Shown here one piece after another: positions 18,191 through 18,993 of a stretch of 64,000 nucleotides of DNA (position 1 is its first letter; each line of letters starts with the position of its first letter). This stretch comes from Fundidesulfovibrio soli (GTDB lineage Bacteria > Desulfobacterota > Desulfovibrionia > Desulfovibrionales > Desulfovibrionaceae). The stretch is taken from contig NZ_JAKZKW010000011.1 of NCBI RefSeq assembly GCF_022808695.1, positions 1 to 64,000 of the forward strand. The letters are read 5' to 3'. The notes beneath the pieces are model-generated. The model worked only from the letters and a program-made list of their open reading frames with translations, was not told where the DNA came from and searched no databases. The translations under genes were made by a program, and so were the position numbers.

Positions 18191-18297
18191 ATAATCAGCG
18201 GTTTCCATCGGTTGCCCTTCCATGTCCCAAAATTAATAATTTTGAGGCCATTTCCTCTTGCCATCGCCACGGCAATGACTATTTTCTGTAATCAGAA

Positions 18298-18993
18298 GTG
18301 AGAGGATGCGGCGCCAGCCAACCCCGAACAGGAGAACGCCGACACTGCCGCACCTCGAGCCGGGGCCAAGGCCCCAAAGCCGTCGGGCGGAGAACGCCCC
18401 CGGCCGGGCCCATCCAGCCCGACCGGCTCGGGCGCCCAAGGGCCCGAACCGAACGGCGGCAAGACGCGGCACTGGAGACAGGCAACAGGGCAACCAACCG
18501 GATTCCGCTTCGGGCGGGATCAAGCCGGACAGCGTGAGCCTCGAATATTCGCCCCCAACGAGTCGAGGCGACAGCAGCAGGTCCGGGTGGTTCGAATGGA
18601 CGGCACTGGAATCAGGCAACTGCGTAAACAAAAGCCCCAAGCCGCGATCGGCGGGGCAGGCCGGTAAAAAGCCCTCCACGGCCCAAGCGGGAGAGGGCGG
18701 CGAGGTCCCAAGAGGACCCCTACCGGCCAGGTTTTTCGGACAGGCTCTGAGTCAGGTAAACGAGCAACCAAGCGCGCCCAGTCCATGTGGGCTGGCGTGC
18801 CGGACGAAAAAGCCTCCAAAGGCCGCCTGCAGGCGATTCCCGGAGGCCCGAGCGACCAAACGTCCGAGATGGTTTTCGAAACCCTGGAGACAGGCAACCG
18901 GGCAACCGAACCCACAACAAAACACTCCGGCTCACGCATCATGCGTCAGCCCCGTCTGAGCCCCCCTCCCGCGCGGAGGGGGGCTTCTTTTTT
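18298..18993 (+). ncRNA. Candidate large structured non-coding RNA with four ~137-nt units
   Basis: This roughly 700-nt stretch has no convincing coding frame but is packed with hairpins. A core with CAGGCAAC, usually preceded by CTGGA, recurs at 18479, 18613, 18753 (as CAGGTAAA) and 18891, giving spacings of 134, 140 and 138 nt. Each of the first three cores is followed by its own hairpins: an 8-bp stem near 18501-18527 and GCCTCGA/TCGAGGC at 18538-18568; GCCCC/GGGGC with an inner GCCG/CGGC near 18633-18656 and a GGCCGG/CCGGCC closing helix (18659-18664 with 18723-18728); and an imperfect GC-rich stem near 18771-18800. A terminator on the + strand closes the region. A weak promoter (TTGCCA at 18259, TATTTT at 18280, 15-nt spacing) lies upstream. 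It matches no RNA class I know: tmRNA and RNase P landmarks are missing. The strand is set by the terminator. Confidence 0.65.
18960..18993 (+). terminator. Rho-independent terminator of the candidate ncRNA
   Basis: A perfect 10-bp GC stem (18960-18969 with 18975-18984), a 5-nt loop and a TTCTTTTTT tract at 18985-18993. The opposite strand has no T-tract, so it acts on + strand transcripts. Confidence 0.9.

Follow-up and report, generated by a model that had tools for sequence, protein, structure and literature searches.

Locus and neighbouring genes

The window, that is, the whole stretch of 64,000 nt analysed here, belongs to the chromosome of a sulfate-reducing Fundidesulfovibrio and carries an intergenic element of about 700 nt between two genes. 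The upstream neighbour is a gene for a PMT_2-type membrane glycosyltransferase (Pfam match for the window copy) and is of this type in six of the seven species compared, the exception being G002, where an unrelated gene on the opposite strand takes its place. The downstream genes vary: a glycine-transporter/UPF0126-type gene follows in the window (Pfam), a response regulator in G003 and a radical-SAM gene in G004 and G005, the last two names being readings of the translations. Downstream of the element in G002, a short remnant (L033, 2365-2808) resembles the radical-SAM gene of G004 and G005 and looks like a decaying gene.

On the plus strand, a promoter-like site at 18258-18285 (-35 TTGCCA, 16-nt spacer, -10 TATTTT) precedes the element. 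Similar hexamers were found in all seven species and, as read from the sequences, the TTGCC/TAYTTT pair 5' of the RNA is separated by exactly 16 nt in each of them; a scan for the promoter pattern gave 2 matches in the stretch, where 0.1 was expected. At the other end, the intrinsic terminator of the original prediction proved real, with 11-12 pairs followed by a T run at 18959-18993 on the same strand. The element is accordingly delimited as a four-module non-coding RNA of about 700 nt at 18292-18993 on the plus strand, its 5' end (near 18292) being inferred from the -10 box and its 3' end from the terminator. Across the species compared no downstream gene is conserved, and the terminator closes the RNA, an arrangement that does not match a cis-regulatory riboswitch or leader. 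Because the RNA has a promoter-like site of its own, its upstream neighbour in G002 is unrelated and the downstream genes differ, it is not regarded as the 3'UTR or leader of a conserved gene. The two species with four modules, and only these, also have a second promoter-like site and an A/T palindrome (AAAATTAATAATTTT) further upstream, at 18212-18244 in the window.

Modular architecture of the element

An unprompted repeat search over 18298-18993 recovered four copies of a 31-nt core, at 18467, 18601, 18741 and 18879. The spacings of 134, 140 and 138 nt from this independent search bear out the predicted 134-140 nt, and the later copies are 65-81% identical to copy 1. Furthermore, the octamer CAGG[CT]AA[AC] occurs four times within about 700 nt, whereas 2000 shuffles averaged 0.09 occurrences and never exceeded 2. 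As a correction to the original prediction, the first 170 nt or so make up a 5' domain of their own, comprising P1, P2 and the first P3, ahead of core 1.

All parts of the element lie on the plus strand. The 5' domain opens with the P1 stem at 18302-18356 (GAGGAUGCGGC / GCCGCACCUC), for which other species carry different complementary sequences. It is followed by the P2 hairpin at 18362-18375 (GGGGCCAAGGCCCC), which appears in both the consensus and the single fold, and by the P3 domain of module 1 at 18379-18457, where GCCGU (18379-18383) pairs with ACGGC (18453-18457) around a conserved linker, GGAGAA. This P3 stem is absent from the single-sequence fold of G000 and present in that of G001; it is supported by the strand-swap test and by a compensatory change from U-A to C-G between the two species. 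Core 1 (18465-18499), identified by the repeat search and core comparison, keeps the hairpin and the 3' half, and its GGUU partner is missing.

Each further module comprises a hairpin a, a P3 domain and a core. Module 2 consists of hairpin a (18500-18521, single fold), a P3 domain (18524-18586; CCGGAC / GUCCGG) that is found in the single fold but ranks its own partner eighth of twelve, and thus does not favour it, and core 2 (18589-18633; repeat search and core comparison). In module 3, hairpin a (18634-18657, single fold) and the P3 domain (18659-18728; GGCCGGUA / UACCGGCC; single fold and strand-swap test) precede core 3 at 18730-18771, the most canonical copy here (GGUU-UU-UCGG...CUG-AGU-CAG...CGAG-C-AACC), which matches the covariance model R1 of the core with 61.7 bits (E 3e-13), core 3 itself being in the R1 training set. 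Module 4 contains hairpin a (18772-18800, single fold), a P3 domain (18801-18866; CGGACG / CGUCCG; single fold, own partner seventh of twelve in the strand-swap test) and core 4 (18871-18912), which was identified by the repeat search and scores 30 bits with R1 although it lies outside the training set. After core 4, no further module follows, only the tail hairpin and then the terminator. The tail hairpin (18925-18951) has a UCAU loop and an invariant CUCCGG on its 5' side, and in the alignment of seven species three of its pairs show changes on both sides. Genome by genome, no match to the tail motif is better than the one in this RNA, although scattered near-matches tie with it at most.

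Distribution within and beyond the genus

With R1, one element per genome was found in each of the seven Fundidesulfovibrio genomes searched, and blastn against 99 related genomes likewise detected it in most genomes of the same genus. The divergent copy of G002, which was left out of model building, was matched by R1 at E 3e-7. Two species carry a four-module RNA of about 700 nt, and the other five a two-module RNA of about 445 nt; four cores are present in G000 and G001, two in G003-G006, and one good core plus one degenerate (first) core in G002. Module number in Fundidesulfovibrio therefore varies by lineage (four versus two), while the core is retained.

Beyond the genus, the searches of 288 genomes of the family, 348 of the order (with a core-plus-tail model, R2) and 395 of the phylum gave only weak single matches; those inspected looked like chance, and no convincing relative was found. 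With one exception, the inspected matches outside the genus overlapped or lay within sequence that is probably coding (for example L023, in a LolD-like gene, as well as L047-L054, L072 and L074). The exception, a 34-bit match in another genus of the family (L046, 1501-1576) is intergenic, but reproduces only the outer stem of the core, as a plain hairpin beside a terminator; it is matched on both strands, has no CUGGA..CAGG and was judged to be chance. A blastn match (G066/L007) was not reproduced by the covariance model, and R2 matches to the tail hairpin elsewhere in the genomes, considered as a possible dispersed repeat, were set aside since a direct pattern search found no near-exact copy family. 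In addition, no match was found in phages, plasmids or viral contigs, and a pattern scan of GTDB genomes returned two records of Fundidesulfovibrio and five scattered single matches, roughly the chance expectation.

At gathering score, Rfam 15 identified only a tRNA in the whole window and no family on the element; when the E-value limit was relaxed, the matches listed there all scored well short of the gathering threshold. The literature searches turned up no account of this RNA, and papers that mention Fundidesulfovibrio do not deal with RNA, judging from titles and the first lines of abstracts. For a related sulfate reducer, a genome-wide prediction of non-coding RNAs describes Rfam families (PMC11124144). 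The RNA appears to be previously undescribed.

Coding potential and sequence constraint

The original prediction had seen no good coding frame in the region. An open frame of 217 aa does span most of the RNA (18306-18959, plus strand), so that this claim holds only in the sense that the frame is spurious. Between the sister species G000 and G001, indels of 1, 1, 1, 3, 2, 1 and 1 nt break it, and substitutions are spread evenly over the codon positions (24/22/18); these 1- and 2-nt indels and the even substitutions exclude coding. Open frames across the element also differ between species, and none of three frames of the element has a Pfam match. The check for a conserved protein frame suggested at the outset thus returned none. 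With so long an open frame across the RNA in this high-G+C DNA, automated annotation may wrongly report a protein here.

Constraint on the RNA was gauged against fourfold sites of the adjacent gene. Among pairs of G003-G006, RNA identity ranges from 65 to 95% and fourfold-site identity from 28 to 73%, the RNA being the more conserved in every pair (for example, 0.65 vs 0.29 and 0.95 vs 0.73). The margin is small between G000 and G001 (0.908 vs 0.881), and in some distant pairs involving four-module species RNA identity is about level with that of fourfold sites.

Fold and covariation

The element folds more stably than dinucleotide shuffles, with a z-score of -5.2 with the terminator and -4.2 without it; the homologues give modest thermodynamic z-scores (-1.5 to -2.9), and the minus strand folds about equally well. 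When modules were folded singly, most produced a shared core, GGUU-YU-UCGG-(n)AGGCA-CUG-GANN-CAG-KCAA-CCGR-NN-AACC, preceded by a P3 stem that borders directly on it with its 3' strand. RNAalifold, run on four species with no structure supplied, returned P1, P2, P3 with inner stems, core 1, hairpin a, P3', core 2, the tail hairpin and the terminator, an architecture identical to that of most single modules folded alone. One helix that it placed between the promoter columns and the tail is spurious, as the promoter is not transcribed. With the spurious helix left out of the count, 95% of cells in this alignment pair, against 34-50% in slid controls, a comparison biased towards the RNAalifold structure in that this was derived from the same four sequences. 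Changes on both sides were seen in 12 pairs, where shuffles gave 6.9, and only one of 500 shuffles reached as high.

Two alignment-independent tests point in the same direction. The matched pairing of P1 strands ranks first of 120, and the P3 strands, taken together, pair better with those of their own module than with those of others (permutation p=0.0003, 12 modules), the strand windows for P1 and P3 being chosen by the authors and held constant by the swap test. About half of the single modules, however, do not favour their own P3 partner. The core shows no covariation, being near-invariant across seven genomes, a sample of limited covariation power. Furthermore, GGAGG in the 5' domain could form a long-range pairing with CCUCC in the tail in four species, and a reduced or shifted one in the rest; we put this forward as a suggestion.

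Altogether, the homology search and covariation analysis proposed with the original prediction yielded homologues with covarying stems in each of the seven Fundidesulfovibrio genomes searched; with a consensus fold and no conserved protein frame, these largely support the predicted large structured RNA. By computation, the element is conserved, non-coding, structured, single-copy and modular, with promoter-like and terminator signals of its own, and it is very probably a real conserved structured RNA gene.

Comparison with known RNAs

Bacteria have few large structured RNAs, and most of these lack an assigned function; the present one has no Rfam match and occurs in every searched genome of its genus. 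Its suggested likeness to GOLLD and ROOL stands as regards size and complexity, all of these being large multi-domain bacterial RNAs of unknown function without a protein frame, but fails on sequence and context. Genes for GOLLD and ROOL reside in phages or prophages, often near tRNA islands (PMC12286853). The present element, in contrast, is chromosomal, single-copy and absent from the phages and plasmids searched, and is built of tandem copies of one module. Neither the GOLLD nor the ROOL Rfam model matches it, even at permissive E-values, and the single tRNA in the window lies 30 kb away, the element being surrounded by ordinary chromosomal genes. OLE is comparable as a chromosomal RNA of about 600 nt conserved in a defined bacterial set, whereas the element has no match to any Rfam family; OLE is known from Gram-positive bacteria (PMC9723947). 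With CsrB/RsmZ the element shares repeated recognition-like hairpins, a variable repeat number and, presumably, action in trans, and differs in its inconsistently enriched GGA/ANGGA signature, the absence of an Rfam match and far more elaborate stems. Like 6S RNA and RNase P RNA, it resembles a housekeeping-type structured RNA present in all members; since the same genome carries both of these elsewhere, it is neither of them.

Proposed function and alternative explanations

The 3' half of the core (CAGKCAAC-CGNN-CAACCAA) is retained even without its GGUU pairing partner: in cores 1 of both G000 and G001 the GGUU strand is lost and the 3' half kept. Because of this retention, the core sequence itself is suggested to be read directly by a partner, most likely an RNA-binding protein. 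As the core is moreover repeated, a multivalent binding RNA is favoured; repetition and unpaired conservation are the features that point to multivalent binding. The RNA would be transcribed from its own promoter and act in trans. Its fold strings together a 5' stem, the repeated modules, each with a hairpin, a multibranched P3 domain and a compact core, and a tail hairpin. Each core would serve as a recognition element for the putative partner, so that two or four copies could make the RNA a multivalent scaffold or a titrating sponge. Taken as a whole and including this mechanism, the reading as an autonomous gene for a non-coding RNA, bounded by a promoter and a terminator of its own and with a modular, multivalent function, has in our judgement slightly better than even chances.

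Several alternatives were weighed against this reading. Assembly of RNA alone, in which modules pack on each other or between molecules to build cages or oligomers of the kind formed by ROOL, GOLLD and the OLE dimer, with spare AACC and GGUU pairing in trans, is unlikely. The RNA is large and multi-domain, there are up to three AACC per one GGUU in each core, and known large ornate RNAs form protein-free homo-oligomers (PMC12286853); however, no covarying palindromic kissing loop was noticed, the near-invariant cores give no covariation signal on intermolecular pairing, and the variable domain number is unlike a fixed cage. Slightly less likely still is a base-pairing regulatory RNA whose invariant tail CUCCGG, or CAACCAACC strand, would pair with Shine-Dalgarno or other mRNA sites. 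Although CUCCGG is invariant in seven species and its CUCC lies outside local hairpins, CUCC has a possible partner within the RNA, GGAG in the 5' domain, an antisense sRNA of this size and with so elaborate a fold would be unusual, and Hfq was found in none of the seven genomes of the genus by a model that finds it in control genomes.

A CsrB/RsmZ-like sponge, sequestering CsrA on repeated GGA hairpins, is improbable. CsrA is encoded in all seven genomes and most core hairpins read CUG-GANN-CAG, but the first G of GGA is paired in this hairpin. An excess of GGA is seen in the two-module RNAs (16-18 vs about 10 in five homologues) and not in the four-module RNAs (15-16 vs 17), and no homologue shows a clear enrichment of ANGGA; given this restriction of the excess to the two-module forms and the ANGGA result, the sponge is not favoured. 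The PMT_2-type gene directly upstream in six of seven species would suit a cis element, namely a 3'UTR or attenuator of that gene, yet this is very improbable in view of the promoter-like site conserved after the upstream gene in all seven species, the unrelated neighbour on the other strand in G002 and the lack of a conserved downstream gene. Finally, a chance or protein-coding stretch is scarcely credible: a 217-aa frame is indeed open in this high-G+C sequence, but frame-breaking indels between sister species, the lack of codon-position bias and of Pfam matches, and the homologues and covariation all oppose it.

The multivalent binding RNA thus remains the preferred reading. In its broadest form, which we offer tentatively and at somewhat less than even chances, the element would represent a new class of large domain-repeat non-coding RNA, with modules of about 140 nt gained and lost between species of one genus as in repeat proteins, acting as a genus-specific multivalent scaffold for a putative partner. 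The element is a case of domain duplication in an RNA, and its natural two-module and four-module versions provide a built-in experiment on the role of each module. As a separate observation on the genus, Hfq went undetected in all seven Fundidesulfovibrio genomes (G000-G006), while CsrA was detected in all seven.
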